Source of the DNA: Haematococcus lacustris
Taxonomy: Eukaryota; Chlorophyta; Chlorophyceae; Chlamydomonadales; Haematococcaceae
NCBI GenBank assembly: GCA_030144725.1
Contig: JASKMD010000026.1
Span: 13,631,407-13,695,406, forward strand
DNA length: 64,000 nucleotides
Direction of reading: 5' to 3'
The notes beneath the pieces are model-generated. The model saw only the letters and a list, made by a program, of their open reading frames with translations. It made no database searches and was not told the DNA's origin. This document shows positions 2,552-42,770 of the stretch, in pieces. Each line of letters begins with the position of its first letter. Positions within the stretch are counted from its first letter, which is position 1. Made by a program: the position numbers and the translations under genes.

Positions 2552-2582
<31 letters not shown>

Positions 2583-2587
2583 TGGAT

Positions 2588-2650
<63 letters not shown>

Positions 2651-15171: not shown

Positions 15172-16470
15172 CTGTCTGCACCATCGGCTCCCTCACGATC
15201 GCCTGAGCCTGCACTGCCCCCTGGCCTGCCATGGCACCTGCGACCGGGTGGAACAGTGACAGGAACACCCCTCCCTTTGCCGTCCTCTCCCACCCCTCCC
15301 ACCCCTCCCACCTGCTTCCTTTACTGCCCTACCTCCCCCCACCCCTCCCTGTCCCTCACCCCTGGGACCCGCCCTGCCCCACCTTCTCCAGGTCCTTGCG
15401 CCTGCGCTGGCCCTGCAGCGCCGTCATCAGCTCGGCACCACGAGCCAGCAGCTGCTCGGTAGCTTCCGAGGAGGCGGAGGCAGCGAGGTTGGGGACCACG
15501 CTGTGGGTGAGGCGCCCCACGCTGTTGGCCCCCGGGCCCCCTCCCTGCCCTGCCCCTGCACCACTGGCCCGCCCGTCCTCTGGCCCAGCCAGGCTGGGTG
15601 CTGGGGGGGAGGCCTGCGGCTGTGGTGCAGCAGCAGGGGAGGAGGGGGGAGGGGGGCCTATGTCCCCCAGCCCAGTCAAGGGGTCGGGTGTGGCCCACTG
15701 CTGGCTGCCGCTGAGGCCTGCCAGGGGGTCAGCGGGGAGGCGGGGGAGGAGGCTGGTGCTCAGGGCAGGGGGGCTGGAGTTGGGGTAGAGGGTGCCGGGG
15801 GAGGGGCTGGGGGTACAGGGTGGGTGTGGGGCTGCCTCAGGCCTGGCCTGCAGCTCACCAGGGGTGGCCAGGGCCTGGGGCCCAGCAGCTGTGGCTGCCG
15901 TCAGGTGGCTCGCTGTGTGCTGTGCTGTGTGCTGAACCCCCTGAAGTGTAGCCTCTTCAGCCAGCTGCACCAACTCAGGGATCACGGGCACATCGGGGGG
16001 TGGGGCGACTGACTTGGCAGCGGCTGGCTTGCGCTTACGGGGGGCGGCTGTAACTGGTGCTGGGGTGGGCTGGGACCCCTCGCTGGGCTGCACTTCCCCC
16101 ACTACTGCCTCCCCTGCGACAGCTGCGAGGTGCTCTGTGGCCATCACCCCTGCCGCTGTGCCAGAAAACTCTGCCACGCCTGCCGCTGCAGCTGCTGGTG
16201 CTGCTGCTGTCTTTGCTGATATTTTGACATCTTTGGCTGTGCCTGCTGCTGGTGCTGCTGCTGTCTTTGCTGATGTTGTGACATCTTTGGCTGTGCCTGC
16301 AGCTGCTGGTGCTGCTGCTGCTGCTTTGCTGATGTTGTGACATCTTTGGCTGTGCCTGCAGCTTCTGCTGCTGGTGCTGTCTCTAGTGGTGGTGATGGAC
16401 CCTCGGCTACCCCTTCAGCGGTCGTGGCAGTGGTGAGCCTGGGTCGTGCAGGCTGTTTTACATGTGCCTT

Positions 16471-23800: not shown

Positions 23801-26800
23801 TTTCACTGCTTGCAGGCCTTACGAGAGGCTGCTGAGGAAGCTGTTGAAGTATCCCAACCGCCCTGCAGTAGTGCTGGTGAGCTCATGCCAAAGACATCAG
23901 CTCTTTACACTGACAAAAGCCAGCTGATGATGGTGCTAAAGATGCAGATGGACGGAACTGAGCTGCAGTGTCCTGTTCCAGTTGCAACCTGCTTAAAACA
24001 GCGCATTCAATGCTCACACATGTATGTGCTCTCACATGCTTACACTTGCTGTCACTCTTCCTGGCCGCAGGTGCACACCTACGTCCACTCCATGGTGAGG
24101 GCCTCTTGCACCCAGCGACTGTTGCCTGACCACCTTGATCATCATCACATGGCAGGGTGCTGTCTGACACACCTGCTTGGACTGGCCCAACGTCAGCATG
24201 CTGCAGCTCCTGCCCCTTTCTCGTGCCACCTTCCACCCACCTGGCGGAGTGCTATGGCACCAGTGTGCGTCATTGTGTATGCCACCTCAATCCATACACA
24301 GCTTGTGTATGCCACCTTAGCTCACACACAACAGGCAAAGGAGCCAGCCAGGCCAGTAAGGCAGCAGTGCAGACTTAAAGCTGTGTGGAACAGTAATGCA
24401 GAGCTCAGCAGTGGGTATGTGGCAGTGTCAGCCCCCTTGTCCCTCACTAGGGCCTCCATTTGAGCCGGATCAGAAGTACCCACTAGCATACACTATCAGC
24501 CACTAGTAGCCACTAACTAGATCCGACTCAAAGGTGTTATTGGGCTGTGTGGAGTAAACCCAGTGCACATGGCACATGAGCCCGCCTACCACCTACAATA
24601 TTGCCTGACCTGAGGGCTATGATGTAGAGTTGGCATGACAAAACATGCACTAATTGTAAGCTGATGACAGCTCAAATGGGGGGCACACACTACTGTGCCG
24701 CAGCAGGCTGCTGCTGCTGCTCCTGGGCCTTGGGGGGCTTGTCTCGCAGCCGCTTGTAGCCCAGGCCAGGGTACTCCTTGCCCTTGGCTGGCAGCGCTCC
24801 CTGGTCTGGCAAGTAGCACAGCTCGAGTGGGCGCCACCTGCTCTCCCCAATGCGCTGCATGTTCAGCGCTGCATTGCAGTCCCTGTCCAGCCACCTGCCT
24901 GGCTGTGGGGCTGGCTTTGCCTTGGCAGCCTTTCCCTGGGCCTTTCCCTTGGTGGGCTCAGCTGCCCCTGGCTCAGCCTTGGTGCGCTTGCTGCGCTTGG
25001 CTGGCTGGGGTGTGCTGAGCCCTGGCTCCGAGGCTGCTGGCTGTGTGGCTGCCTGGCTGCTGCGTGGGGCCTGTGGGGGCCTGCGGGGGGCCACTACCGG
25101 GCACCACACCAGGCCCCGCACTGTCTGGTCACGCTCCTGGCTCCAGGCTGGGCGCACCAGGCGCTGTTCCACCTGCCCTGCTGGGGGCTTCCAGCCTGCA
25201 GGCCTTGTGGCACTGAGTGTGTTCAGCTCCACCTCACAGGGCTGCTTGCCATTCACTGCTGAGCTGACCCGGCTGGTGCGGTGCTCATCGACAAGCACCA
25301 CCCTGCCCCCATCCTGGTCTTTGCCCCTGGGCCTGCACACCACCTTGCGGCAGGCACGCAACACCGCATCAGCACCCCACCCTCCCCTGGTGCCAATGCT
25401 AGCTGCTCCAAAGAACACCACCAGCTGCTTGGCATGCCCATGTCGCTTCATTGACAACTGCGCCATCTCTCTCTCCAACTGCAGCCATGCACACAAGGCA
25501 CACACATGGTGGCTGACATGGTGGCACCAGGTTAGGCATGGCACAGTCAAGTACTCCTTCATATCATGCCCAACCCACCACCTCTCATTCCCTTACCCTC
25601 CCTCCCACACACCTACCCACCCACCCACCCTCACCTTGTTGAAGAACTGCTCCAGCGCCCGGTCCTGGGCTCCGTACAGCCTCAGCCGCTGCCGTGCCCA
25701 CTTGGGGTCCAGGTACACCTCCCACACCGCATCCCAGGTGGCCAGGGTGACGGTGATGTGCTTCTGGTTGGCCTCCAGGGAGGTGCCGGCTGAGCTTGCT
25801 GCTGCCAGGTGCTGGAGGTGGGGCTTGATCGGTGCTAGCCACCGCTCAGTGTCACGGCGGGCATTGTTCAGGCCGCTGGCATGCTTCAACTCGCCCTTCT
25901 TTCTCGGGTCCTTCTTGTGCTTGTCGCTACCCTTCCGCTTCTTCTTAGCCATCACGCGATGCGCAGTGCGACGGGCGGTGGCATTTTCTAGCAATTTAGG
26001 TTTCCCGTGAAAATAACACGGTTATGTGAAAATACACAAGTGCTCTGTTACAGCCTTGGTCGTAGGCAACGCAGAAGCTCCAGCTTGGTCGTAGGCAACA
26101 CAGAAGCATAGCAGTGGCAGTGTCAGCCTTTGCCCCGACCTGTGCCACCTGGCTGTGGCTCTGGCCTAGCAGCATCCAGGGTGACGGCTGCAGGCGCGGG
26201 CAGAGCAGAGCAACACGGTGCAGGCACAGCAGGCAGCTGGCCACACACAGCCCAAGGCTCAGGGCACCTGGCAGAGCAGGCCTCAGCACAAGCTGTGGTG
26301 GAGTCCCTCAGCCTGCCTGCCTGGTCCAGAACAAGCACACAGGGCACTGGACATTGCAGGGGTGCGCAGGTGAAGGAGCTCACAGGGGATGGTCACCTGG
26401 CACACACTGGCTGACGCACTGATAACATCAAAGTGCGGGGTCATCTGCTGCCGGCGCTGCTGTCTGCGCACACCCACACTGATGCACTGCCCCACCCCTG
26501 CCTAGCCTGCCTGCCATGCACTGCAGGCAACCCCCCTGCCAGGCGTATTTTACAACTCAGCTGAGCGGGAAATGCAGGAGGTGGGTGGGTCCAAGCCGCC
26601 GCAGCGCTTGTCTGTATGCCCACCTGGTCAGTGGGTCTTGCCTCCAATTGCCCACCTACACTAACCGCTCGGGTCATTGAGCTTGTGGGGTGCATGTAGT
26701 TGCCTGTGGTGCATGTTGTAGCGTTGTGGAGAGTCACGGGGCAAGCAGCTGGACAGGCAGAAGGCCAGCGGCCACAGCTGTTGTCCCTAACTTGTGTCGC

Positions 26801-29800
26801 ATGCTACCCGGGACACCATGCATGTGGTACAGACACACCATGCATGTGGGTCTTATGTCGCAGAACAGCAGTTGCTATGTGGTGATGGTGGTGCTGGAGA
26901 CGGTGATGATGGTGACGGCCACGCATGTGTGCTGTGCCTGCAGTTTGCCCTCTACTATGGTCTGCCCAGTATCAGCGTCAAGGCTGCGGTGTTCCCGCTC
27001 ATGGTGGCCAACGTTCCAGGCTTCATGCCATCACCCCCTCGCCTGACAGACGAAAAGGGCCTGAAGCTGGCAAGTGTGCTGCTCAAGATGGCAACCCACA
27101 TCCCTGGTGGCACCTTCCATCCCTGACCACTGGGCTTCCTGTCCAAATCAGACTGCTCAACGCATGAAAGGCTTAGCCTGATCAGCTAGGCCGGCTGCTT
27201 GCCAGCCCGGGCATCAATGCGCTGCCTGACCTCTGCAGCCCGGTGCAGCCTTGGCCTGGCGTTTGGCAGCCGGTCGTTGACCAACTTGTAGCCCTGCCCA
27301 TACCCCTTGCCAGGGGCAGGCAGCGCCTCAAGGCCTTGCTAGCTGCACTTTTCTAGGGGGCGCTGCACGATCTCCCCAATGCGCTGGACGTTCCGCGCTG
27401 GCGCCGGTGGTGTCCTGGTTCAGCCCCCTTGTCCCTCACTAGGGCCTCCATTTGAGCCGGATCAGAAGTACCTACTAGCGTACACTATCAGCCACTAGTA
27501 GCCACTAACTAGATCCGGCCCAACAGTGTTATTGGGCTGTGTGGAGTAAACCCAGTGCACATGGCACATGAGCCCGCCTACCACCTACATTATCGCCTGA
27601 CCCGAGGGCTATGATGTAGAGTTGGCATGACAAAACATGCACTAATTGTAAGCTGATGACAGCTCAGATGGGGGGGCACACACTACTGTGCCTCAGCAGG
27701 CTGCTGCTGCTGGGCCTCGGGTGGCTTGTCTCGCAGCCGCTTGTAGCCCAGGCCAGGGTACTCCTTGCCCTTGGCTGGCAGCGCTCCCTGGTCTGGCAAG
27801 TAGCACAGCTCGAGTGGGCGCCACCTGCTCTCCCCAATGCGCTGCATGTTCAGCGCTGCATTGCAGTCCCTGTCCAGCCACCTGCCTGGCTGTGGTGCGG
27901 GCTTTGCCTTGGCAGCCTTGCCCTTGCCTGTGCCCTTGGTGGCTTCAGCTGCCGGCTAGCTGCGCTTGGCTGGAGGGGGAGTGCTGGGCCCTGGCTCTGA
28001 GGCTGCTGGCTGTGTGGCTGACTGGCTGCTCCGTGGGGCCTGTGGGGGCTTGCGTGGGGCCACTACAGGGCACCACATCATGCCCCTCACTGGCTGGCCA
28101 CGCTCCTGGCTCCAGGCTGGGCGCACCAGGCGCTGTTCCACCTGCCCTGCTGGGGGCTTCCAGCCTGCAGGCCTTGTGGCACTGAGTTTGTCCAGCTTCT
28201 TTCTCGGGTCCTTCTTGTGCTTGTCGCTACCCTTCCGCTTCTTCTTAGCCATCACGCGATGCGCAGTGCGACGGACGGTGGCATTTTCTAGCAATTTAGG
28301 TTTCCCGTGAAAATAACACGGTTATGTGAAAATACACAAGTGCTCTGTTACAGCCTAGGTCGTAGGCAACACAGAAGCTCCAGCCACATCAAACCCAGGT
28401 GTCCTGGTTCAGCCCCCTGCCCCATGGGGGTCCTGGAGTGGTGGCACTGGTGGCACTGGGCCAGGTGCAGCATTGGGGGTCTGGGTAGGGGGTCCTGGGC
28501 AGGCGAGGGGCCTGGTCCGGGGGAGGCAGAGGGGGGCCGGTGTCATGCAAGCAGGCTTGAGTCTGGAGCTGCACAGCAGCACCACCTTTGTGGCAGTGTT
28601 GCCTGGTTGGCCTGAGCAGCTCAGCCTACCTGACAGCTGAGACACGGTGGGCCTGGCAACCTCAGTTCACGCCAGGACCGCGTGTCAGCCTTGTGCACAG
28701 CTGAGCTCTGGCAGCTGAGGACAGCTGAGCTCCTCCAGGTGTACCATTGCCCAACAAACCTTGAGCCCTCTGCTGCGCCACTACAGGCCAACGTACTTAA
28801 ATCAGCCTGGTTATCAACCTTGGCTCCATATAAGCAGCCCTCCAGCAGCCACCTCACCGAGCAGCAGCTTAATGCTACGGTGGTGGAGCCAAAAAATGAG
28901 TATTACATGATGTCGAGACATGTCATTGATATGGTACAGCAGGTCTAGTCGTGTGTGAAACACTGCAACTTACTGGGCGCTCACTGTGCGGGGGCACCAG
29001 CACTCGAGAGGCCAGCGCTCTTTCTTTAAGCTTTCTTTGAGCTCCTTCATTAAGGCCTATCCCATGGAGGCAAGCCATTCTGGGGCGCAGACCGCACCCA
29101 TCATGGCGTGCTTTAGCTCCCGTGGTGACATGCAAGGCGCAACTGCTGATCACGGGTCAGCACAGTGTGACCAGTGTGACTAGTGTGAGTGTGCCATGTG
29201 CAGCTCACTGTGCCCTTGCATGCAGCAGGAGGCACCGCAGCAGGCTAGACCAGAGATGAGGCGTGCTGCTGGGTTCCGTGTCACTTTGTGCAGAAGGCCT
29301 TCTACTTCGACCCAGTGCATCCTGATGGTAACACTGGGTGCAGGTGCGCCCTGAACATAGCGCCATGCAAGCAACATGCGCTCATGCAAGCATAGCAGCA
29401 GCCCCATGCCGAGCCCACACCCTCTCCACAGCATCCACCACCCACTTTGCCTTGCCAAGGGGTCCCAGTAAAAACACACCACACATGCTGCTCACACACG
29501 ACCACCTCAGCGGGCAGCAGGTTGGTGCTGCTGTGGTGGGGCCCACACATCAGGTGTTGCAGTGGTGAGCAAAGCCTTATGCAAGCTGCCAACTGGGCGT
29601 GGTGCTCTGCAGGGTCATTGCAGAGCTGGTGTATCACCTCATCCTCCACACGGCTGCTGACATAAGCTCCAGGCCAGTGGATGGTGATGATACTGCTGTA
29701 GCGGCTGCCAGCCTGGCACCCCCCATGGTGCCTGACAACCATGAGAGCGCCAGTGACAAGTGCGTGCTGAGAGGGAGAGCTTAGCTGTGGTTAGCAGTAC

Positions 29801-29901
29801 AGCAGAGTAGCAGAGCAGCAGCATGGCTTGTCCACTAGCGTGCAGCTTGTCACCACTTGCCACCAGCAGCATGCTCTAGACACTGCACATCATGATGCCC
29901 T

Positions 29902-29934
<33 letters not shown>

Positions 29935-31189
29935 GACAAGCACGAGCCCTGACCCACCCACATCAAACCCATCATCAGCAGCAGCAGCAGCAGCACCACC
30001 ACCACCACCACCACCACTCAATGGCTGCAGGACCACTGTGGGCCCTGTGTGTCTCCTGCTTGCCCAGATGCTTCATTGGCATGCAATTCACTGGGAGGGT
30101 CACTGCCAAGCAGGGCTTTGAATGGATCAATGAATCCAAGACCCCCAGGCCTAAGTTCGGAATGGTGGCGACTGAGGTGTGTACATGTGTGACCGTGTGT
30201 GAGCATGTGTGAACATGTGTGAACATGAGTAGCTGCTCCCCTTGCATGACATACTGGCAACCCCGTGAACCTAATGACAAGGTGGCTGGGCTGTAATGCC
30301 CCATTGTGCGGGGAGTGGCTCAATGGGGCAGCCAACTAGTAAAAGAGAGTAAATAAAGAGAAGCTGACAGGTTGCCTGATCGTTTGCCAACCTTGCATGG
30401 CGTGTTGCATGCCTGCTACCATGTCATGCAGCCCGGCTCACGGCTGGAGATCTCAGTTGACACCACAGCTGGCGGCCCGACTGCCAAGGCTGGTGCTATG
30501 GTGGTGGTGGAGCTGGCGCACCTGAAGCAAGTCCCTCGCCGTGTACAGATAGATGCACCACGCTTGCCCATGTTGCGTTCCTAGCTGCTCATGTTGCCGC
30601 ATACGCAGGTCATACGAAAACATGGGCAAGGCCAGTGTGGCATGTGAGGGTGGCTGCACATGCCAAAGCACGACATTGGATGGACACACGACCTTGCGCA
30701 ACTCCCAGCTGCACCTGCACCAGTTTCATGTGTCACAGGCTGCCGACTGCAAGATTGTGATCACAGGTGAGCAGGTCACACCAACCTGGGGTCCCACAGC
30801 TGGGGCAATGTTGTCTGGGATGCCTGGACGGTGCTCCCTGAACTCCCGTGAGGGGCTATCGTCTCGTGATGGCTAGATCTCTGTTGAATGAATGTGGCTG
30901 CTCCAGTGACTGTCGCACACTGCTCAGCTACGTGCCAGCGCAACCCATGACAAATGGCATGTGTGTGTATCGCACCTAGCAGCTGTGTCTGCAACCGTGT
31001 GTGTGGCCTTGTGGTGCAGTGCTGGCGGAGACGAGCTCGGGCAAAAACAAGGTGAAGTTGGCGGGCATCACAATCAGTGAGGAACCGGGCGACACTGCGG
31101 GCATGCGTAACGACCAGGCCCTCAATTATGCGCATGACATTTCAATGCGAGGCGAGGATGGCGTTTTTGAAGTGATGAACCATGCGTGA
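20854..31189 (+). CDS. secreted SGNH/GDSL-like hydrolase, multi-exon
   Basis: The ATG at 20854 starts a signal peptide (MLSMLAALLALLSILQTCA). In-phase exons found: 20854-20910, 21007-21175, 21333-21382, 22900-23000, 23363-23419, 23816-23876, 24071-24094 (24-nt micro-exon), 26944-?, 29294-29343, 29613-29759, 30068-30176, 30432-30526, 30609-30766, 31020-31189 (TGA). At least one exon is missing in 21383-22899 and possibly one in 24095-26943. SGNH blocks: KVVTIGGSITAGQ (I, nucleophile Ser), HNGAMAG (II), YSVNDQ (III, Asn), AFYFDPVHPDGNTG (V, Asp and His). The C-terminal half (SYENMGKASVACEGGCTCQ) is the beta-rich tail typical of this large volvocine family, whose substrate is unknown. Exon 30432-30526 seems to use a GC donor. 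Two Fanzor elements and other repeats lie in introns without breaking phase, so the gene may still work. Confidence 0.82.
21710..21845. repeat. intronic repeat, copy 1
   Basis: It matches 28700-28845 in another intron of the same SGNH gene, both containing AGCTGAGGACAGCTGAGCTC and TTGGCTCCATATAAGCAGCC. No ORF or terminal structure is recognised. Confidence 0.7.
22684..22745 (+). repeat. ACACC/ACCAC pentanucleotide tract
   Basis: A short run of CACAC/CACCA units in an SGNH intron, with CACTCATT before and after it. Confidence 0.7.
24434..26113 (-). mobile_element. Fanzor element family 1, copy 1
   Basis: It is bounded by the 15-bp direct repeat GTGGCAGTGTCAGCC at 24419-24433 and 26114-26128. 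The plus-left end (CCCTTGTCCCTCACTAGG, hairpin, then about 200 bp) is the family's fixed end and lies downstream of the Fanzor ORF, which reads on the minus strand. The opposite end (ORF 5' side) carries GAAAATAACACGGTTATGTG and GGCAACACAGAAGC. It is internally deleted: the N-terminal NLS block is fused to the middle of the protein. It sits in an intron of the SGNH gene, antisense to it. Confidence 0.85.
24690..25994 (-). pseudogene. Fanzor (TnpB-like RNA-guided nuclease), internally deleted
   Basis: Two coding blocks. 25994-25650 starts with a basic NLS-like segment (MAKKKRKGSDKHKKDPRKK) and jumps straight to GELKHASGLNNARRDT, so the RuvC-I region is deleted. It runs through HITVTLATWDAVWEVYLDPK to QFFNK at a GT donor. 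After a short intron, a block of about 290 codons ending at 24690 reads QLVVFFGAAS, VVLVDEHRTSRVSSAV, RGLVWCPVV and WLDRDCNAALNMQRIGESR, the RuvC-III motif. The usual zinc-finger Cys pairs are reduced to single Cys. Fanzors are transposon-encoded eukaryotic relatives of TnpB and Cas12. Lacking RuvC-I Asp, this copy should be inactive. Confidence 0.8.
26122..26467 (-). pseudogene. duplicated fragment of the RecG-gene exons 8-9
   Basis: It matches 14844-15179 over about 340 bp with scattered substitutions and a small block replacement (GTGAAGGAGCTCACAGGGG for GTGGAGTGG). It carries most of exon 9, the intron and exon 8 with its splice sites ([12 protein letters not shown]). It lies in an SGNH intron on the same strand as the source gene. 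The Fanzor copy 1 insertion falls at its left edge, since the target duplication contains its first bases (GTCAGCC). Confidence 0.85.
27187..27400 (-). pseudogene. older Fanzor C-terminal fragment
   Basis: On the minus strand this reads ARNVQRIGEIVQRPLEKCS, stop, then YGQGYKLVNDRLPNARPR. That corresponds to the post-RuvC-III region of the other copies (NMQRIGESRWRPLELC) and to the fragment at 41150-41345 (YKLVNDRLPKGRQ). Fanzor copy 2 inserted next to it. It belongs to a different subfamily from the five main copies. Confidence 0.65.
27426..28397 (-). mobile_element. Fanzor element family 1, copy 2 (deletion derivative)
   Basis: Bounded by GGTGTCCTGGTTCAGCC at 27409-27425 and 28398-28414. 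The fixed end is at 27426 and the ORF reads on the minus strand. The NLS block (KKKRKGSDKHKKDPRKK) is fused directly to LDKLSATRPAGWK, so all of RuvC-I and the centre are missing. A TAG after PPPAKRS precedes the RuvC-III segment. It sits in an SGNH intron. Confidence 0.85.
28700..28845. repeat. intronic repeat, copy 2
   Basis: Counterpart of 21710-21845, in the intron before exon 29294. It differs by small indels. Confidence 0.7.
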
Positions 31190-31832
31190 CCACACTAGGG
31201 TTTGGTAAGTGGCAGTATGCTGAAAAAACTTGGTGAGGAAATGAAAACAGAGAGAGAGAGAGAGAGAGAGAATGAGAAATGTGATTTGCAAAGGGAGGAT
31301 TAGGCGCAAGCGTGCATTGCTGGCATGTGCAGTTTTCGAGCTGAGGCATGGCTGCTATTGGGCCTGGCACATACCCAGCTGCCCTTGTGGCCAATATTGC
31401 ATCACCACCATTTGTATGCATGCAGCCTCCCCCTCATTCACCCTCATTGCCTCGACCTGGTGCTGCGCTTGCTTTGACGTGCACGGCTGGGTAGCCAGCA
31501 CCCCCTTCTTGTGCTCCTTCCTGACAAGTACATGTGTGGCCCAGCCGTGGAACAATGTGTTTGAAATGGGGAATTCAGCTGTTCAGGTTTAGACCATGAA
31601 CCCCAATGACAGGCGCTAGCCCAATACCTCGTGACAGGCGACAGCCGCTGCTGGGTTCATGGGTAGATGAGGCGTGGCGCTCTACTACGGCGCCAACATA
31701 GCAGCGCTGTCATGCTTTAGCCTACTGGGCAGTCATCTTGCCCCAACCATGGTGACCAATGGTGAATGTCATGAGTTATAACATTATAAGGTTATAACGT
31801 ATGGCTAGATCTCTGTTGAATGAATGTCGTGT

Positions 31833-31837
31833 TGTAA
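31833..31837 (+). terminator. candidate poly(A) signal of the SGNH gene
   Basis: TGTAA lies 644 bases after the stop at 31189. Fanzor copy 3 begins 12 bases later. The 3' UTR would contain a GA repeat at 31249-31271. No nearer TGTAA was seen. Confidence 0.35.
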
Positions 31838-32299
31838 GTACATGCCAGCCCCCTTGTCCCTCACTGGGGCCTCCATTTGAGCCGGATCAGAAGTACCTAC
31901 TAGCATACACTATCAGCCACTAGTAGCCACTAACTAGATCCGACTCAAGCAGTGTTATTGGGCTGTGTGGAGTAAACCCAGTGCACATGGCACATGAGCC
32001 GCCTACCACCTACACTATTGCCTAACCCCGTTAGGGCAACGTGTAGAGTTGGCATGACAAAACATGCACTGATTGTAAGCTGATGACAGCTCAACAAAGG
32101 GGGCACACATTACTGTGCCTCAGCAGGCTGCTGCTGCTGGGCCTCGGGTGGCTTGTCTCGCACCCGCTTGTAGCCCAGGCCAGGGTACTCCTTGCCCTTG
32201 GCTGGCAGCGCTCCCTGGTCTGGCCAGTAGCACAGCTGCAGCGGGCGCCACCTGCTCTCCCCAATGCGCTGCATGTTCAGCGCTGCATTGCAGTCCCTG

Positions 32300-35200
32300 T
32301 CCAGCCACCTGCCTGGCTGTGGTGCTGGCTTTGCCTTGGCAGCCTTGCCCTTGCCTGTGCCCTTGGTGGCTTCAGCTGCCGGCTAGCTGCGCTTGGCTGG
32401 AGGGGGAGTGCTGGGCCCGGGCTCTGAGGCTGCTGGCTGTGTGGCTGACTGGCTGCTCCGTGGGGCCTGTGGGGGCTTGCGGGGGGCCACTACAGGGCAC
32501 CACATCATGCCCCTCACTGGCTGGCCACGCTCCTGGCTCCAGGCTGGGCGCACCAGGCGCTGTTCCACCTGCCCTGCTGGGGGCTTCCAGCCTGCAGGCC
32601 TTGTGGCACTGAGTTTGTCCAGCTCCTCCTCACAGGGCTGCTTGCCATTCACTGCTGAGCTGACCCGGGTGGTGCGGTGCTCATCCACAAGCACCACCCT
32701 GCCCCGCCGCTGGTCTGTGCCCCTGGGCCTGCACACCACCTTGCGGCAGGCACGCAACACCGCATCAGCACCCCACCCTCCCGCTGTGCCAATGCTAGCT
32801 GCTCTAAAGAACACCACCAGCTGCTTGGCACGCTTGTGGCGCTTCATTGACAACTCCGCCATGTCCTCCTCCAACTGCAGCCATGCACACAAGGCACACA
32901 CAGGGTGGCTGACATGGTGGCACCAGGTTAGGCATGGCACAGTCAAGTACTCAGTCCCTTACCCTTCCTCCCACACACCTACCCACCCACCCACCCTCAC
33001 CTTGTTGAAGAACTGCTCCAGCGCCCGGTCCTGGGCTCCGTACAGCCTCAGCCGCTGCCGTGCCCACTTGGGGTCCATGTACACCTCCTACACCGCATCC
33101 CAGGTGGCCAGGGTGACGGTGATGTGCTTCAGGTTGGCCTCCAGGGAGGTGCCAGCTGAGCTTGCTGCTGCCAGGTGCTGGAGGTGGGCCTTGATCGGTG
33201 CTAGCCACTGCTGTGTGTCACGGCGGGCATTGTTCAGGCCGCTGGCATGCTTCACCTGGCCCTTGGTCAGCTTCCACCGGCGCAGCTGGTCTGCCAGGAG
33301 CTGGCCTGTTGCTGGATCCCACACCCCAGAGGCTGCGCTGACTGCCTGGGTGACGCCGGGGTCGATGCCCACCCCAATCTGTGTGTCTGGGTCAAACACA
33401 TACTCACGCGTCTCAGCTATGCCCTTGCCTATGTGGGGGAGTCCCACTGCATGGGCCGCTGCTGCTGCTGCACTTGGGCGGCTGCTGGTGCTGGTGCTGC
33501 TGGCAGCTGGGGGTGAGGCTGGAGGAGGAGGAAGGGGGCGCGTGTAGTGCACGCACACGCTGACACCGTCAGTGTCCACCAACCTCTCGAAAGCAAACCC
33601 CTTGTTGCGAAGCTTCTTGGTGTCGAACCACCTGGCCCAGTGTTGGCTCAGTGCTGGCTCTGAGGTGAATGCTGCCCGGGTTTCCTTGGTCAGGCCCAGC
33701 TGCTTGCACACCCCATGCAGTACCCTGCTGTCCACCTTGATGAAGTGCACCCCCACCCTGGCCATGGGGGTGAGGGTGAAGGGGGGCGGGCAGGTCAGGG
33801 TCCGGGGACCAACCCCACGCCCTCTTGCCGCGCTTTGGTCGCCCTGGTGCGGGTGGGGTGTGGGGCTGCTGCCACCGCTCTAGCCACCGGCACACATGCA
33901 CTGCATGGCGCATGCGGCAGGGCAGGGGCAGGGTGTCCTGCAGGGAGCCTTGCTTCTTCATGCCCAGTAGGCGACGGTGCGTGTTGGCCTCCTCTATCAG
34001 GTCCGCCACATGCCCCTTGTCCAGGGTGGAGGCCTTCAGCTCCGAGCTGTTGGCGTTGATGCCATACCCGCACGCCATCTTGATGAACAGCTGCGCCTCC
34101 TCACCGCTCCAGCCTAGCTGGGCCCTGGCAGCCTTGGCGTACAGCTTCACAAAGCGCTCTGCAGGTCAGGTCAGGTCAGGTATAGGTCAGGTATAAGGTC
34201 AGGTCAGGTCAGGTATCAGGTCAGGTCAGGTCAGGTCAGGTCAGGTCAGGTCAGGTCAGGTCAGGTCAGGTCAGGTCAGGTCAGGTCAGGTCAGGTCAGG
34301 TATCAGGTCAGGTCAGGTCAGGTCAGGTCAGGTCAGGTCAGGTCAGGTCAGGTCAGGTCAGGTCAGGTCAGGTCAGGTCAGGTCAGGTCAGGTCAGGTCA
34401 GGTCAGGTCAGGTCAGGTCAGGTCAGGTCAGGTCAGGTCAGGTCAGGTCAGGTCAGGTCAGGTCAGGTCAGGTCAGGTCAGGTCAGGTCAGGTCAGGTCA
34501 GGTCAGGTCAGGTCAGGTCAGGTCAGGTCAGGTCAGGTCAGGTCAGGTCAGGTCAGGTCAGGTCAGGTCAGGTCAGGTCAGGTCAGGTCAGGTCAGGTCA
34601 GGTCAGGTCAGGTCAGGTCAGGTCAGGTCAGGTCAGGTCAGGTCAGGTCAGGTCAGGTCAGGTCAGGTCAGGTCAGGTCAGGTCAGGTCAGGTCAGGTCA
34701 GGTCAGGTCAGGTCAGGTCAGGTCAGGTCAGGTCAGGTCAGGTCAGGTCAGGTCAGGTCAGGTCAGGTCAGGTCAGGTCAGGTCAGGTCAGGTCAGGTCA
34801 GGTCAGGTCAGGTCAGGTCAGGTCAGGTCAGGTCAGGTCAGGTCAGGTCAGGTCAGGTCAGGTCAGGTCAGGTCAGGTCAGGTCAGGTCAGGTCAGGTCA
34901 GGTCAGGTCAGGTCAGGTCAGGTCAGGTCAGGTCAGGTCAGGTCAGGTCAGGTCAGGTCAGGTCAGGTCAGGTCAGGTCAGGTCAGGTCAGGTCAGGTCA
35001 GGTCAGGTCAGGTCAGGTCAGGTCAGGTCAGGTCAGGTCAGGTCAGGTCAGGTCAGGTCAGGTCAGGTCAGGTCAGGTCAGGTCAGGTCAGGTCAGGTCA
35101 GGTCAGGTCAGCCTGGGTTGGAGTAATGCTTGCCTGGGTTGGAGTAATGCTGCTGCATGGCCACCGCCAGCTGCATGGAGTGTGCGTCGATGGTGTTGGC

Positions 35201-35330
35201 TTCACCCGTCAGCTTGATGCTGCACAGCTTCTGCAGTGCGACGGGCGGTAGCTTTTTCGTTGGTGCTTCCTGACAGCCAGCATGGCTGCTCAGCATGGGG
35301 CCAGGCATCAGAGCTTGCTTGCTCCCCCGA
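32300..35330 (-). pseudogene. Fanzor gene, near full length, with disabling lesions
   Basis: Minus-strand blocks: 35330-35115 (VALQKLCSIKLTGEANTID, N-terminal domain); satellite-filled intron; 34162-33770 (RFVKLYAKAARAQLGW, FIKMACGYGINANSSELK, HVCRWLERW, Arg/Lys linker); 33765-33088 (MARVGVHFIKVDSRVLHGV, WFDTKKLRNKGFAFERLV, then RuvC-I IGVGIDPGVTQAVSAASG, LNNARRDT); then QLVVFFRAAS, VVLVDEHRTTRVSSAV and the C-terminal RuvC-III DRDCNAALNM near 32300. Lesions: an apparent +1 shift near the C-run at 33780, TGG->TAG after WDAV (33091), and TAG after PPPAKRS (32384) before RuvC-III. Decayed, but it shows the parental layout. Confidence 0.75.
34163..35110 (+). repeat. GGTCA pentanucleotide satellite (about 190 units)
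   Basis: It is almost pure AGGTC/GGTCA over 948 bp, with a few GGTATCAGGTCA variants confined to the first 140 bp. It lies inside a Fanzor intron. On the coding strand each unit reads CCTGAC, and the array runs straight into the acceptor TGACCTGCAG. Confidence 0.97.
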
Positions 35331-35480
35331 ACCAGATGCCAGGCCCAGTTCGAAGTACATGCCAGTCAGCAAGCATGGCAACGGCCGATGGCCGAAGCCT
35401 GACGCTGTGAACGTGGTAGACGTGTGCTTCGTCAGGTGCAGGAGTGCGAGAAGCATACAACTCTACAACCAGTTACAGCC

Positions 35481-36661
35481 CCCTTGTCCCTCACTAGGGC
35501 CTCCATTTGAGCCGGATTAGAAGTACCTACTAGCATACACTATCAGCCACTAATAGCCACTAACTGGATCCGGCTCAAACAGTGTTATTGGGCTGTGTGG
35601 AGTAAACCCAGTGCACATGGCACATGAGCCGCCTACCACCTACAGTATTGCCTGACCCGAGGGCTATGATGTAGAGTTGGCATGACAAAACATGCACTAA
35701 TTGTAAGCTGATGACAGCTCAACAAAGGGGGCACACATTACTGGCATGCTGGCAGGATGGGCAGGATGGGCAGGCTGGGCAGGGGCCCGTGTGGGGAGTG
35801 GGGGTAGGGGGGGAGCATCAGGGGGTTGGGGAGGCTGCACGGCTGGAGGCTGAGGGGCGCTGGCACTTCCCGGGGTAGGGTAGCCCACCAGGCAGGTGAG
35901 AAAAATGCGCAATACAAACAAGGAAGCGATGAAGCGGAGCTGAGAGTGGATCTCAGCCCTTAGCCGGAGGTGCTCCCTCAGCTTGCGCCTGGTCTTCTTG
36001 CAGCCGCGCAGCACTGCGCCCTCGGGAACCTTGATGACCTGCAGCCAAGCGAGGTTGCCATTTTGACAGGCCAAGACAAAAGGCGGGGTCAACACAAACA
36101 GTGCGGATACACATAAGGCGAGGACGGACCCACACCTGACGTCGACGCGTGGTCCAGCCATCTCGACGTTCCTGTCGTTGCTTGCCTTGGGCGGAACGCG
36201 ACACTGCGATGGAACCAACAGGAGCGACGGGTTATCTCACAGCGCGTAACTCACGTCTAGGGCTCACGTCACGGCTGGGGACACGAACCTTTATGTTTCT
36301 TGTCGCTACCCTTCCGCTTCTTCTTAGCCATCACACGATGCGCAGTGCGACGGGCGGTGGCCTTTTCTAGCAATTTAGGTTTCCCGTGAAAATAACACGG
36401 TTATGTGAAAATACACAAGTGCTCTGTTACAGCCTTGGTCGTAGGCAACACAGATGCTCCAGCCTGAACATAGCCCGCTAGCACCAAGCATAGTAACAGC
36501 CCCATGCCGAGCCCACACCCTCTCCACAGCATCCACCACCCACTTTGCCTTGCCAAGGGGTCCCAGTGAAAACGCACCACACATGCTGCTCACACACGAC
36601 CAACTCAGCGGGCAGCAGATTAGTGCTGCTGTGGTGGGGCCCACACATCAGGTGTTGCAGC
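35481..36661 (-). mobile_element. Fanzor element family 1, copy 4 (ORF replaced, 5' extension)
   Basis: Bounded by ACAACCAGTTACAGCC at 35465-35480 and 36662-36677. It keeps the fixed end with a 12-bp hairpin (arms 35506-35517 and 35568-35579) and the NLS start region (36300-36420), but the nuclease centre is replaced by unrelated coding-like sequence. Beyond the usual 5' side it carries about 200 bp (36465-36660) nearly identical to the start of an SGNH intron (29349-29562). Confidence 0.8.
35697..36218 (-). pseudogene. captured gene fragment inside Fanzor copy 4
   Basis: The minus-strand frame reads NGNLAWLQVIKVPEGAVLRG, then KKTRRKLREHLRLRAEIH, QLRFIASLFVLRIFLTCLVG and a Pro-rich tail. It is unlike Fanzor and compositionally like a spliced host exon. 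I do not recognise the family. It ends in the element's own 3' region. It is probably a transduced or template-switched host sequence. Confidence 0.4.
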
Positions 36662-36677
36662 ACAACCAGTTACAGCC

Positions 36678-36837
36678 CTGGCATCAGTGAAGACAAGTGC
36701 ATGCAATTAAAGCTGTACGGTCTGACGTGAGGTTTGGTACATTGCAAAGCTATACGGAGCTATGTCCCTGTGTATTAATGGGCAGTTTTGGTCGTCAGAA
36801 ACTTGTGTTGAAGCTGGGGCATAGGTTAAGGTGGCAG
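36678..36837. other. spacer between Fanzor copy 4 and the TIR element
   Basis: About 160 bp with no recognised gene. Its last seven bases (36831-36837, GTGGCAG) are the target-site duplication of the TIR element. Confidence 0.5.
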
Positions 36838-38904
36838 TCAGGCGTTCCCAACATGGGGTTGGCAATCTTCATGCAACTGCAGCCCACCTACTCAATCTTT
36901 TGATGTAACGTTTGTTGCGTCTGCTGCGATATGATACTGCGCGTTTAATGTAAGACTGGAATTGCCATCGGAGTCTTTCGATGCGGGCAGCCACACGTGA
37001 CCCCGAATGTGTCCCAATCGCAGACCGTGGTTAGCTACACCGGTAAGCTACGTCCTTGGCTATCCGTTAGCGATGCACGACATGTCGGTGGCGCACACCA
37101 CTGAAGTCCGGCAAACATGGCTGCGCGAGGTTCCTGATGGTGCAGGCCGCTTGGCGAGGATGTGAAGAAACCCGAATTCGTGTGCGACATCGCTGTATCG
37201 CTGTATTGGTGGGCGGCACAGTAGGGTCTAGTAACCCCCTCCAACTATTATCCGCTATATGTTTTCAACCATTGAACAACAGCCTGGCCGCACACGAATC
37301 TTTTGTAGCATACTCATTAACGCGTCCATGGCACTATGCAACTCAACCATTGGGTCTGTATGTGACAAGATGGACCGCTTACAAGGTACACATGCTGATG
37401 GCTACAGGTGCATGAGGAGCCGACCGAGCTTGTCTTACCACTTTGCCACGTGGCCACCAACACAACTTAACCCACCATCTCCCAACCTCGTCTACCCCGC
37501 CCACCTCCCAGTAGCCCCTCCTCCCAGCCTGCCATCAACCTCCTGCCCCCTAACTCTCCTTCTCCTCGCCTCCTACCTCTCCCCAACCTCTCCTTCACCC
37601 ATCTCCCCCCTACCTCTCCTTCACCCATCTCCGTATCCATCACCCCCCATCACCCTGACCACCAAGCCAAGCCCGTAGCAGCAGCAGCAGCAAGAGGACC
37701 CTTATGGCACTTGGCGTCAATATGCATCTGACGTTCGTGCCATGGCTGTGAACGGCGACCCTGGCAGCCCCGCATTGCGCCTTCACCTCGAACAGTACTA
37801 CCTTGCCTGCCCCATCTCCAATGCCCCAGTGGAGTCCTTGTTGCAGCTGTTGAAGCATGGTGGTGGCAAGTACATGGAGCTGCCAGCTCTGCTGCAGTTG
37901 ATGTCCCTGCACACATGCAAGGAGGCGGTGAAGACTGTGGATGTTCATGATTTGCAGCAGCGTATGGGTCAGCTCCGTGCTGAAGTGCGGCGTAAGGAGG
38001 ATGCCACAGCTGCAGCACAGCGGTCAGCAAAGGCAGAGCGCCAGATCACAGATGCAACACACAAGGTCGGGAGGGTTGTGATTAATGTGGGTGACCATGC
38101 GTGCCAACAGCGGCTTGCAGCGGCCCATGCCCTTGCCTTGGGGGGGCATGATTATGGCCACACAACTGTCGAGGAGGCAATGAAGATGACAGGAAAGCAG
38201 CTTCAGTCATACCTCCAGTTTCACAAGCAGGAGGTACACACGAGCTGGAGGGTACCCAAGCTACAGAGCCACGTGTGCACCCACATCCGTGGGAAGCTTG
38301 CCGCAGCTGCGCCCCCTCAGCAGCAGCTGACACCTGCAGGCACCACCCCTGAGCTGGCTGAGCCTGCTGGTGCACCCCCTCAGCAGCAGCAACAGCTGGC
38401 AGCGGCAAGCACGTCCCGTAAGCGTGGGGCACCTGCAGCTAACAAGTCGAGGGCAGCAAAGCAAGGTGAGACAACACCACGTACTGCACCTAGCACCTTG
38501 TTTAAGCGTAGTAGAGCAGCCGGTAATGCACTAGCGCCAGCAGCAGCTCCAAAAGCTCATAGTGGTATTCAGTCGTCACGACTGCCGTCGTCGCGTCCAC
38601 ATGCCAAAAGCAAAACATGTTCCGACTGCTGCTGCGTGTTGCAGGTGCCACTCACAACAGCGTGGCGAAGCGTGCTAGTGCGGCGCGCCTCGCATGTGGC
38701 GAAATCGCATGAATTCAAATGCTTATCTTTGGACAGGCACTGAGCACCGCTGAGAGCGAGATAGTTTTTGCTGCGTCTGCCATTTCGTAGATATGACTCT
38801 CCTCTGTTCAAAGCACTGTTTACATATATTTTTGACTGAGTGGCTGCGGAGATACTGGCTTCGTATCACAGGGGGGTGGTTTTCAGGTAGTTGGGAACGC
38901 CTGA
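36838..38904 (+). mobile_element. TIR DNA element with SAP-like ORF, copy 2
   Basis: Perfect 15-bp terminal inverted repeats TCAGGCGTTCCCAAC (36838-36852) and GTTGGGAACGCCTGA (38890-38904), flanked by GTGGCAG at 36831-36837 and 38905-38911. Length 2067 bp. The interior matches copy 1 at both ends and over the ORF. The region encoding the basic N-terminus and the CAG tract differ: 37420-37680 is a C/T-rich stretch here. Confidence 0.9.
37742..38743 (+). CDS. SAP-like, Gln/Ala-rich element protein (copy 2)
   Basis: The first ATG of the conserved frame is 37742, but in-frame sequence QQQQEDPYGTWRQYAPD begins earlier, so the true start is upstream and probably spliced. The conserved domain includes YYLACPISNAPVESLLQLL, RMGQLRAEVRRKEDA and the SAP-like helix pair (TVEEAMKMTGKQLQSYL...KLQSHVCTHIRGKL). 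Unlike copy 1, the frame continues through a Lys/Ala/Ser tail to CSDCCC and stops at 38743. No DDE or other transposase catalytic pattern is evident. This is the better of the two copies. Confidence 0.55.
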   Translation: MAVNGDPGSPALRLHLEQYYLACPISNAPVESLLQLLKHGGGKYMELPALLQLMSLHTCKEAVKTVDVHDLQQRMGQLRAEVRRKEDATAAAQRSAKAERQITDATHKVGRVVINVGDHACQQRLAAAHALALGGHDYGHTTVEEAMKMTGKQLQSYLQFHKQEVHTSWRVPKLQSHVCTHIRGKLAAAAPPQQQLTPAGTTPELAEPAGAPPQQQQQLAAASTSRKRGAPAANKSRAAKQGETTPRTAPSTLFKRSRAAGNALAPAAAPKAHSGIQSSRLPSSRPHAKSKTCSDCCCVLQVPLTTAWRSVLVRRASHVAKSHEFKCLSLDRH

Positions 38905-38911
38905 GTGGCAG

Positions 38912-40440
38912 CCAACCACGTCTGGGTCGAAATCTTTTGACAACAGGGTTGCAGTGGCAGTGGATGCACCGCCCTCCACTCATTAGCGGCTTCATGTCTT
39001 GTGTATAAGAGAAGCAGGTGTTAGACTCACGCATGTTCTCGCATATCATAATGCGAAATGCTCGCTTAAAATGTACAGTGTGGGCAGAGGTTTTGCCTCA
39101 ACCTCTTCAGCCACTCTATCAGCGTACGGCGCTGATCTTTGAGTCCCTAGGTTGCGAAGGGCGAGACGCGTTGCGTTACACCAACATGATGGGGACGCGG
39201 CTGCGCGACGCTAATGGGTCGCTGCAAGCGCTATCAATCTTTCTGATGGTGACGGTAGCGGCAGGTACGTCGGCAGCTTGATGACCGTTGTACGCGAAGG
39301 CTGTGATGGCGCGCTTTCATAAAGCGCAGCTCGTAGCAGTGACGCCGTCATCCGATGCCCCAGCTTGACTAGCGACGCAGCACTGCCTGACCTTCAGGAC
39401 CTGTGCGCTGCTTCCAGCCTGTGACTGCTGTGACTGCCATCGGAGTGTCACACCAAGGCATTGGCCGCACCCAGCGTGCACTTACCCAAACAAGTGAGTC
39501 CGTTGGGGTGAAGGGACACAACAAGGACACATTGCTATGCCTAAGCCCATACAACTGACCCAGCATGACCTTCCTAAAAGATGTAGCATGACATGGGTGG
39601 GTGAGGGGAGAGCATGGCGCACAGGGCTTGGTGACCCCAGAGGCCTGATCCTGCTGCTCTGCTGCCCTGCTGCTCTGCTGCCCTGCTGCTCTGCTGCCCT
39701 GCTGCTGCAGCCTACACTTTCCAGGGCCTATTCCGCTCTTTCACTGTCACCACTGGGCAAGGCACAACCGCTGGGCGGGCTGCAGGGGCAGGGACCGGCG
39801 CTGGGGGTGGTGGGGCAGCAGGTGCTGGAGGCGGGGGGGGGGCCAGTGCGCCCGGTGCAGCAGCCGGAGGGGCAGGGGCGGGTGGGAGAGCAGGGGGAGC
39901 AGCAGGCACGGCAGGTGGTGGGGCTGGTGCCGCCGGGGGGGCCACTGGAGGCGCGGGGCCTGCTGCTGCTGGTGGGGGCGCTGGAGCAGCAGCAGCAGCA
40001 GGGGCTGGCAGAGGGCCCGCCCCTGTCAGTGTGGGGCCACCAGGCAGCGGGGTGACCATCAACTTCATCAACATCAGAAACGAGGCTGGGGACAGGCGGT
40101 GAGACTGCAACCCTAGAGAGGGGCGGCTCTCTGCTGGGCCAGTGGTCTCTCCTGCAGGGGTAATGGGGGAGAGGGTCAGCGGGTACCAGCAGGTCGCCAC
40201 CTTTGGCTTAGGCACCGCACACACGGTCACTAACAAGGCTGCAGCCAGGTGTGTTGCAGGCCCATGCGGGCATGCATGCAAGCAGGCAGCGGCGAATGAG
40301 GCCCAGTTCTGGACATGGAGCATGGCCAGGAAGGGAGGCTGGAGGGTCACACAGGGTCACACAGGGTCACTGCAGGCAAGGCTGGTAGGGCCAGGCAGCT
40401 GTGAGGGCAGCTGCACTACCACCTGCTGCCCACAGCATGA
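38912..40440. other. unassigned region with low-complexity frames
   Basis: 39018-39281 (+) contains a protein-like frame (VWAEVLPQPLQPLYQRTALI, ALRYTNMMGTRLRDANGS) ending at 39281, unassigned. 39650-39710 is a CTGCTCTGCTGCC repeat. 39716-40060 encodes Gly/Ala-rich sequence on plus (ending GVTINFINIRNEAG) or Pro/Ala-rich sequence on minus. It resembles hydroxyproline-rich cell-wall protein modules, but the strand cannot be decided. An acceptor-like CTCTCCTGCAG lies at 40149-40159. Confidence 0.3.
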
Positions 40441-40469
40441 AGCAAGCAATGCAAGGCCTGGTGCAAAGC

Positions 40470-40680
40470 CCCTCATGCTGTGTCAGTGCTCGTGTTGGGG
40501 AGGCCCAGCAGCGGCTTGATAGTGCTGGTGGATGAGCACCTCAGCAGCTGGGTCAAGTCAGCTGTGCACAAGTACCGCGCTTTGAAGACCAGCTGAAGCA
40601 CCGCAAAGCCACCAGGCTCGAGGATGGCATCCTCTATACGGGCAGGTGACTCGGTGCGCCCAGCCTGGAGCCAACTCCCA
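40470..40680 (+). pseudogene. decayed Fanzor copy, 5' part of interrupted remnant
   Basis: The plus frame reads IVLVDEHLSSWVKSAV, equivalent to VVLVDEHRTSRVSSAV of copies 1 and 3, and the DNA continues with a match to GGTGCGCCCAGCCTGGAGCCA. The remnant resumes at 41601 after a nested insertion. Stops are frequent. Confidence 0.6.
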
Positions 40681-41600
40681 AGGGTAGCTGAGCATAGCCC
40701 ACCCCCCCACAGCATAAAACAGCATAAAACAGCTGCCGAGAGCTGGGTTGTCAAACAAGACCGGGCCTGGACCTGCAAATCCGTGAGGAGGACTGTGACT
40801 ATGTTCTTTATAGTTGGCTTGTGAATCATGTAATGGATATCACTTCCGCCCCACTCGGTTGCCGGCCCACTCCGGTTGAATGACGACCTGACGCACCCAA
40901 CAGCACGGCCACTCCGCTCCGATGATGTTGCTCAGTTCTTGTGATGTCCCCGAAAAGGAACTGCAAGCGCCCCGTCTCCCGAGCACCCTCCGCAGCCGGT
41001 AAGCCGCAGAGCTTGAGGAAAGGCCCCGAAGCTAACTGACGACGCGGCGCAGTGTGCCCCACGCGACATTTGCGACCTTGTGCATCAAGTCCTGTCGTGC
41101 GTGTGCTGTGCTTTCCCGTGTCTGTAGGCGCCAGTGGCAGTGGGCAGCAAGTCCAGGGGCAGGGGCGGGCTGCCAAGGTAGTGGTTGGAGAGCGTCGGGG
41201 AGCATTGGGGAGAGCAAGCAGCGCCCCCTGGAGCTGTGCATCTATGAGTGCCTGAAGGCTCTGCCCCAAGGAGTACCAGCAGGGCTACAAGCTGGTCAAT
41301 GACCGGCTGCCCAAGGGCAGGCAGTAGCTGCACCGGGCTGCAGAGTACCGGCGGGGTATTGATGGCCGGGCCCGCAACAATGCATAGGGCCTGGTGGTTT
41401 CACACAGGCTGTCAGCCTTACAAGAGCATAATGCTGTTAGTTTTGATGAGGAGCCCAGTGGTCTGTCCCGGGAAAGTGCCACCTGAGTGGGGTTTGTAGT
41501 CATCAAGGGTGCGACCGAGGATGCTACAACATGTTTGTAGTAGCTGAGTGAGATTACCCACAGTGCAACATGTTGTTCCTTGTTGAACAAGTTTTGTTGT
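40681..41600 (+). mobile_element. Fanzor-related element family 2, copy 1, nested
   Basis: Bounded by the 17-bp repeat CCTGGAGCCAACTCCCA at 40664-40680 and 41601-41617. Its 3' 200 bp (41400-41600) match 56787-56976. Upstream, 41190-41345 carries a Fanzor C-terminal remnant (IGESKQRPLELC, then YKLVNDRLPKGRQ) on the plus strand. The 5' part, about 40735-40790, shares short phrases with an intron and exon edge of the coiled-coil gene near 45595 and 45804. As in family 1, the end downstream of the ORF is fixed. Confidence 0.75.
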
Positions 41601-41760
41601 CCTGGAGCCAACTCCCACAAGCCACATGCAACCAGCCAGCTAGCTTCACAGCCGGCAGCTCCAGGGCCTAAGCCCAGCACTCCCCCGCCAGCCAAGCTAA
41701 GCAGGCAGCTGAGCCCACCCAGCTCACCAAGGGCGCAGGCAAGGGGCAAGGCTGCCTAGG
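41601..41760 (+). pseudogene. decayed Fanzor copy, continuation
   Basis: It resumes the remnant of 40470-40680: CAAGCCACATGCAACCAGCC and CCCAGCACTCCCCCGCCAGC match the Pro/Ala/Lys-rich linker of copies 1-3, before losing similarity near 41760. Confidence 0.55.
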
Positions 41761-42326
41761 CAAAATTATTACATCCAGGCAGCACCCTGATCTTGCATGG
41801 GAAAGAAGAGCTGTTTCCGACATAGTCTCTGGCTCGGTTGCTCATCGTATTCGGATGCCTGAGAGCTGACCCAGTCAGACACTGACGCTGTGCTGAACCC
41901 ACAATCGATGAGGGATAAGAGATGTGCATGCATGGACACATGTTCATATACATATAAATGCAAGAATACGTTCATGCTCGTTGGTTGGTGGATGCAAGGT
42001 TGGTGGGTTCAATCCGTTGCCTGTGAACCTGTATGCCTGCCTTTCCTTTCCTGCTGATCTGGTTGGGAGTGCTGGTAGTACAGTCTTGTGGATCCCCAAT
42101 GCCTGAGTGCTGCTGCTGCCACAGCTGCCTGCTCGAAGCTCATCCCAGGATCTCGTCACGAAGTATGGTAGGGAAGAGGTGGTCCCACAAGGGGTCCTCA
42201 GGCCGTGAGGCTGTTGTGGCGGGCGCTGCCTGGCACTAACACGCTTCCGTGGCCTAGTCTTGATACCACTGTCGTGTGATACCACTGTCGTGTGATACCT
42301 CTGCCTGGCACTAACACGCTTCCGTG
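41761..42326. other. spacer without recognised genes
   Basis: No family-level match. ACACGCTTCCGTGGCC occurs twice (42239-42254 and 42315-42330) and GATACCACTGTCGTGT is tandemly duplicated near 42262-42292, just left of Fanzor copy 5. Confidence 0.5.
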
Positions 42327-42339
42327 GCCCTTCACAGCC

Positions 42340-42734
42340 CCCTTGTCCCTCACTAGGGCCTCCATTTGAGCCGGATCAGAAGTACCTACTAGCATACACT
42401 ATCAGCCACTAGTAGCCACTAACTGGATCCGGCTCAAACAGTGTTATTGGGCTGTGTGGAGTAAACCCAGTGCACATGGCACATGAGCCGCCTACCACCT
42501 ACAATATTGCCTGACCCGAGGGCTATGATGTAGAGTTGGCATGACAAAACATGCACTAATTGTAAGCTGATGACAGCTCAGATGGGGGGGGCACACATTA
42601 CTGTGCCACAACAGGCTGCTGCTGCTGCTGCTCCGTAGGCAACACAGAAGCTCCAGCCTGAACATAGCCCGCTAGCACCAAGCATAGTAACAGCCCATGC
42701 CGAGCCCACACCCTCTCCACAGCATCCACCACCC
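42340..42734 (-). mobile_element. Fanzor element family 1, copy 5 (ORF-less, MITE-like)
   Basis: Bounded by GCCCTTCACAGCC at 42327-42339 and 42735-42747. Only 395 bp: about 280 bp of the fixed end, with a perfect 13-bp hairpin, joined directly to the 5' region (GTAGGCAACACAGAAGC) and the same SGNH-intron-like extension as copy 4. It lies about 100 bp beyond the stop codon of the coiled-coil gene. Confidence 0.88.
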
Positions 42735-42770
42735 GCCCTTCACAGCCCTGTTCCCTGCCACTGCCTCGTT

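Follow-up and report, generated by a model that had tools for sequence, protein, structure and literature searches.

Five copies of a Fanzor element lie in the window analysed here, a 64,000-nucleotide stretch of the Haematococcus lacustris genome (contig JASKMD010000026.1), and all five are on the minus strand, with the fixed end of each corresponding to the sense 3' end. The copies and the direct repeats that bound them are as follows.

24434..26113, minus strand: copy 1, sense 3' end fixed at 24434
24419..24433: copy 1 duplication, 3' side, 15 bp
26114..26128: copy 1 duplication, 5' side, 15 bp exact repeat
27426..28397, minus strand: copy 2, the same insertion being 1934 bp in a homologous region
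27409..27425: copy 2 duplication, 3' side, 17 bp
28398..28414: copy 2 duplication, 5' side, 17 bp exact repeat
31849..35352, minus strand: copy 3, the longest in the window
31836..31848: copy 3 duplication, 3' side, 13 bp; before CTG, the pre-insertion site has GA instead of GG
35353..35365: copy 3 duplication, 5' side, 13 bp exact repeat
35481..36661, minus strand: copy 4, 3' module joined to Fanzor 5' exons
35465..35480: copy 4 duplication, 3' side, 16 bp
36662..36677: copy 4 duplication, 5' side, 16 bp exact repeat
42340..42734, minus strand: copy 5, fixed 3' end at 42340
42327..42339: copy 5 duplication, 3' side, 13 bp
42735..42747: copy 5 duplication, 5' side, 13 bp exact repeat

Ends, target duplications and interior of the copies

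The 3' junction reads ACAAGGGGG|CTG in all five window copies, and the 5' ends are all different. A scan of the window placed exact matches to CCCTTGTCCCTCAC at 24434, 27426, 31851, 35481 and 42340; copy 3 has two extra C residues at its fixed end, so that its boundary is kept at 31849. The exact direct repeats around copies 1 to 5 (15, 17, 13, 16 and 13 bp, respectively) become duplications of 13, 15, 13, 14 and 11 nt when CTG is taken as their start. The GG that precedes CTG can be assigned to either the target or the element in four copies, and is necessarily the element's in copy 3. With tandem repeats and element copies masked (the AGGTC satellite inflates the unmasked null), 84 of 20000 positions drawn at random had an exact repeat of at least 13 bp within 4 kb, and 221 of 20000 had an 11-nt match such as that of the genomic locus L019; duplications at five of five copies, against 84 of 20000, thus rule out a chance origin.

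No inverted 8-mer was shared between the first and last 40 bp of any of the five window copies, and the duplications vary in length, so that a cut-and-paste DDE transposon with terminal inverted repeats (TIRs) was rejected. Neither poly(A) nor a short-repeat tail was found at the 3' junctions of the window copies and of most of the copies fetched from the genome. These results bear out the initial annotation, which had described five copies with a common fixed 3' end, a different direct repeat of 13-17 bp around each, and no TIRs or poly(A). Its ragged 5' end needs a different wording, as can be seen from the parts listed below.

25896..26084, minus strand: Fanzor 5' UTR and exon 1, copy 1 (compare gene models starting MAKKKRKGSDK)
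28196-28384, minus strand: Fanzor 5' UTR and exon 1, copy 2
36299-36466, minus strand: Fanzor 5' UTR and exon 1, copy 4
42634-42660, minus strand: Fanzor 5'-UTR fragment, copy 5
24434..24695, minus strand: conserved 3' module, shown for copy 1; it contains a long stem-loop plus a terminal hairpin

The 5' UTR and exon 1, recognised through the Haematococcus gene models that begin with MAKKKRKGSDK, are present in copies 1, 2 and 4, whereas copy 5 has only a short piece of the 5' UTR and copy 3 a 26-bp stretch; interior pieces are missing from the window copies. Plain 5' truncation is contradicted by these retained 5' parts and missing interiors, and "truncated" is an incomplete description because four of the five copies keep 5'-UTR sequence. 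The 5' end does differ from copy to copy, as first described, but not by simple truncation, and foreign sequence is present on the 5' side of copies 4 and 5. In the homologous region the copy 2 insertion measures 1934 bp, versus 974 bp in the window, and contains the missing interior; some interior losses may therefore be later than the insertion.

Compared with 200 shuffled sequences, three stretches taken from the 3' module gave better folds (z = -4.1, -3.4 and -5.1); two of the three, from copy 5, overlap. Judged by eye, the terminal hairpin near the 3' end (CCCT-AGTG-AGGG) has a 4-bp stem, and a 5-bp stem in an older copy. No Rfam family, the hammerhead included, matched the element.

Other repeats were also recognised in the window. 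An older Fanzor copy, diverged and lying on the plus strand (59137-60325), has the hairpin loop AGTG at its 3' end and, by eye, no long stem-loop; it is flanked by direct repeats (58931-59038 and 60510-60618) that are 79% identical and possibly represent an old long duplication. Older Fanzor coding remnants exist at 27199-27400, with copy 2 beside or inside it, and at 40522-41764. One edge of a duplicated segment (14844-15241 and 26122-26524) falls within a few bases of the insertion point of copy 1. Another ORF-bearing repeat is present in two copies (1667-3854 and 36841-38904), the second of which has, by eye, inverted ends around GTTGGGAACGCC.

The Fanzor gene and its introns

The protein pieced together from copy 3 had 661 relatives among 8000 candidates scored, and all relatives among the 120 matches listed were from Haematococcus lacustris. 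The relatives contain the hallmarks of Fanzor proteins, CRISPR-like nucleases that are the eukaryotic relatives of TnpB, namely the RuvC-type aspartate, the C-terminal zinc-ribbon region and the RD motif (by eye, GIDPG, DEFRTS or DEHRTS, and RDCNAA), and PF07282 scored above the cut-off in two (P0092 and P0090) of the seven relatives scanned. No Pfam family was found in the four window frames tested, there was no match to a solved structure, and a search of viral and prokaryote contigs yielded no relatives. One exon of gene model P0028 matches copy 3 at 99% over 116 residues, and exon 1 of the model seems to come from copy 4. Many Haematococcus gene models (P0121-P0201) fuse Fanzor exons to host domains, such as an RNase H2 subunit in P0121 and an acetyltransferase in P0123, and are perhaps annotation errors. 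Among the 120 listed of 150 gene models, a reverse transcriptase (RT) domain was found only in P0124, fused to the Fanzor N-terminus; it matched Ty3-type RTs and was rejected as the engine of the element.

The following introns are retained in the window copies.

25479..25634, minus strand: retained intron, copy 1, 156 bp
32875..33000, minus strand: retained intron, copy 3, 126 bp
34159..35132, minus strand: retained intron, copy 3, 974 bp, made up largely of AGGTC satellite
36204..36288, minus strand: retained intron, copy 4, 85 bp
36039..36135, minus strand: retained intron, copy 4, 97 bp

Scored as the size of the gap between exon matches, an intron-sized gap was kept in all 35 exon-pair rows (34 distinct places) from the window and 20 fetched genomic loci. 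The four exon pairs kept it in 13 of 13 rows (12 distinct, one place being common to the loci L010 and L024), 9 of 9, 7 of 7 and 6 of 6, with gaps of 78-974 bp; exon ends that had no partner (2, 5, 2 and 1) were outside the scoring. No exact exon-exon join was seen in any copy in the window and the 20 loci. The AGGTC pentamer satellite inside the copy 3 intron occupies about 950 bp (34162-35110), and the same intron is 78-530 bp in related copies.

Genomic copies, the GG|CTG target and an empty site

The genome search gave 2957 first-look candidates, of which 40 were scored: 20 loci were fetched (9 kb each), three were in the window (copies 1, 2 and 5), and 17 were left unfetched. The 20 loci contain 30 matching 3' ends, which represent 28 distinct places because L010 and L024 overlap, and CTG directly follows the G run at 25 of the 28 (27 of the 30 rows), the exceptions being L014, L023 and L027. 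Once L012, which repeats the L011 insertion, had been set aside together with the primary sites in L010 and L024, which are alleles of window copies 1 and 2, 17 further distinct primary sites could be compared with the window. An exact duplication of at least 11 nt is present at 11 of them (L009, L011, L013, L014, L015, L017, L019, L020, L022, L025 and L026), that of L009 being a bare CTG repeat and weak, and imperfect duplications are present at two (L021 and L027); none was found at L016, L018, L023 and L028. The mismatch-tolerant search was run without a control, and gave two candidates for L021 and a match only inside an element copy for L018. L011 and L012 contain the same pair of insertions, about 0.1 Mb apart and in opposite orientation on one scaffold, which perhaps includes both haplotypes there.

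The 11 further sites, the five window copies and the insertion cM described below make 17 exact insertions with the target GG|CTG: CTG and the G at -2 occur in 17 of 17, and the G at -1, and hence GG, in 16 of 17. Their duplications are 11-16 nt long from CTG, or 13-18 nt with GG. The target table restricted the sites from the fetched loci to those preceded by GG, and an unfiltered scan gives identical exact sites. Of the secondary 3' ends that these loci contain, three being near a locus edge, only cM and the window's own alleles have a duplication. In short, the fixed 3' end, the open 5' end, the variable duplications and the lack of TIRs and poly(A) hold in most fetched copies.

Some 3.5 Mb from the window, on the scaffold that carries it, L010 and L024 span its homologous counterpart, which is probably the other haplotype; H. 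lacustris is reported to be diploid in one published account (PMC7617258). In a host intron of this region there is a 316-bp copy (cM), flanked by CTGCTACCATGCTTG. The site is filled in both L010 and L024 and empty in the window. The features related to cM are the following.

29387..29403, minus strand: empty cM site, GG|CTGCTGCTATGCTTG on the minus strand
36425..36660, minus strand: copy 4 5' extension, consisting of cM-site host flank, 5' duplication and insertion 5' end; 236 bp, 95.8%, no gap
42634..42734, minus strand: copy 5 5' extension, likewise from the cM site; 101 bp, 98.0%, one gap

Because copies 4 and 5 carry the 5' duplication and host flank of the cM site, copying is anchored at the 3' end and able to pass the 5' end, and both copies descend from an insertion at that site. 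As cM is too short to have supplied the body of copy 4, the parent of copy 4 was probably a longer copy at the cM site. Capture of DNA from the window's own gene by copies 4 and 5 was considered and dropped, since the homologous region with cM forms one continuous match. GGCTG fossils of earlier insertions were not enriched in the 5' extensions (20 seen versus 20.3 expected).

Possible modes of copying

The sequences themselves show that the 3' end is nearly invariant, that insertion takes place at GG|CTG, that the 5' end is open, that a parent site's 5' duplication and flanking DNA are carried over and that introns are kept. We tentatively interpret the family as a high-copy element of the Fanzor1 type that spreads by one-ended, 3'-anchored copying with a Penelope-like RT as the most likely engine, a reading whose probability we place a little short of even; the odds of a Penelope-like and a Helitron-like engine are nearly equal. 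An enzyme supplied in trans would nick the strand that reads CAGCC, and the nicked 3' end would pair with the element 3' end, GGGGGCTG, whose CTG would come from the donor's own target. This pairing would prime synthesis into the element, which would stop at a varying distance, sometimes past the 5' end, and a second nick 11-16 nt away would create the duplication. At copy 3 the site is GA|CTG but the junction is GGGGG|CTG, so the G run is copied from the element. A first cut within GG|CTG, a second one 11-16 nt further on, and Gs contributed by the element in copy 3 all look like target-primed copying. To this extent, with a staggered cut at GG|CTG whose priming side carries the motif, the target-primed reading given in the initial annotation is supported, whereas its mobilisation in trans by a LINE was not borne out, the introns being kept.

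Intron retention argues against a spliced template, and the engine would be an RT of the Penelope kind rather than a LINE acting on spliced mRNA. As described in PMC3846280, Penelope elements mobilise intron-containing genes in trans, with duplications. The Haematococcus element resembles the Penelope-like elements of that description in its kept introns and target duplications (the trans action being proposed here), and differs from them in that it is not known to have terminal repeats, an RT or a GIY-YIG nuclease. A motif scan of the window and the 20 loci found no RT, GIY-YIG nuclease or donor element, giving one unconvincing match.

A DNA template accounts for the kept introns equally well. 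Rolling-circle, one-ended transposition by a Helitron2-like or IS91-like replicase, in which DNA is copied from the fixed 3' end and the 5' terminator is often missed so that copying runs into the flank, is accordingly a serious possibility, for which we hold roughly a one-third expectation. In the one-ended transposition of IS91, one end is fixed, the other is open into the flank, and a short motif lies beside the fixed end, and the Haematococcus element is similar in all three respects. DNA copying would preserve both introns and flank, but it leaves the origin of the duplications unexplained: the element has a hairpin near its 3' end as Helitron2 does, yet unlike Helitron2 its insertions make target duplications, and IS91 as characterised in PMC3627910 makes none. 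Moreover, no inverted match of at least 7 bp was found between the copy 4 5' region and the 3' end, although the end of copy 4 may not be the true 5' end, and no RepHel was seen in the part of the genome covered here.

The closest precedent for rolling-circle copying is that of Bao & Jurka 2013 (PMC3627910), who read the Chlamydomonas reinhardtii Fanzor1 families CRe-1/2/3 as products of one-ended Helitron2 transposition, and whose families have almost the signature found here; the premise of the initial annotation, that Fanzor genes normally reside on cut-and-paste or IS607-like elements, overlooked them. In that account, CRe-1/2/3 copies keep their 3' ends intact, are truncated at the 5' end and deleted internally, have captured sequence on the 5' side, and have duplications of about 7-19 bp. 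The Haematococcus element shares the intron-bearing Fanzor gene, the intact 3' end, 5' truncation with internal deletions, the captured 5' sequence and variable duplications, whose 11-16 nt from CTG fall within that range. However, the CRe ends are described as similar to those of real Helitrons, whereas the Haematococcus ends are not known to be linked to any Helitron. The CRe copies follow TTTT or a T-rich tetranucleotide outside the duplication, whereas here GG (16 of 17) precedes the 5' duplication and GG|CTG spans the cut. CRe copies with the consensus 5' end are described as lacking duplications, whereas the long Haematococcus copies L014, L019, L020 and L026 (a consensus 5' end not being defined here) have them, and flank carry-over is traced here to a located parent site. 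In the literature searched on Fanzor in Chlamydomonas and Haematococcus we found no published description of the Haematococcus family, and the abundant, uncharacterised Fanzor element reported for Auxenochlorella (PMC12633428), compared by abundance only, is likewise a high-copy Fanzor element in a green alga. The precedent is thus the Chlamydomonas pattern of 2013, and the GG|CTG target, the filled/empty pair, the flank carry-over and the intron retention are new.

Mobilisation of the element transcript in trans by a LINE would explain the fixed 3' end, the variable 5' end, the variable duplications and the motif on the priming side. We nevertheless consider it improbable, since mobilisation of mRNA is weakened by the intron-sized gaps that every one of the 35 rows scored (34 distinct) has kept, unlike a LINE-mobilised retrocopy, and by 3' junctions that have neither poly(A) nor a short-repeat tail; a version using unspliced RNA is unaffected by the introns. 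We know of no LINE that has the 3' end of the element.

Equally improbable is a staggered break at GG|CTG, perhaps made by Fanzor, with repair from a donor element through the GGCTG end and end joining that adds filler and deletions: the cM 5' filler resembles nearby host sequence by eye, and GG would be at the Fanzor adjacent-motif position, with the guide position in the 3' flank (Saito et al., PMC10432273), but new sites and donor have only GGCTG in common, so that the guide would not match, and at 11-16 nt the 3' overhang would be longer than the staggers described there for four Fanzors.

In the four Fanzors tested in that study (PMC10432273), the sequence that follows the RNA scaffold on its 3' side serves as guide, and the target is preceded on its 5' side by the adjacent motif. 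By analogy, the guide of each Haematococcus copy is predicted to begin with its own duplication, and GG to be the adjacent motif. It is conceivable, though unlikely, that target-primed copying of an unspliced transcript spreads this gene for an RNA-guided nuclease, and that the insertion motif puts GG at the Fanzor adjacent-motif position and makes each copy's own duplication the guide, so that an insertion could arm Fanzor against its own empty allele.

The puzzle of one-ended Fanzor copies posed in 2013 thus becomes a testable system, with up to thousands of candidate sites, that predicts a guide and an adjacent motif for Haematococcus Fanzors. If copying is target-primed, Fanzor nucleases would be cargo of an RNA-copied element; if it is rolling-circle, relatives of Helitrons would have a step that produces long target duplications.
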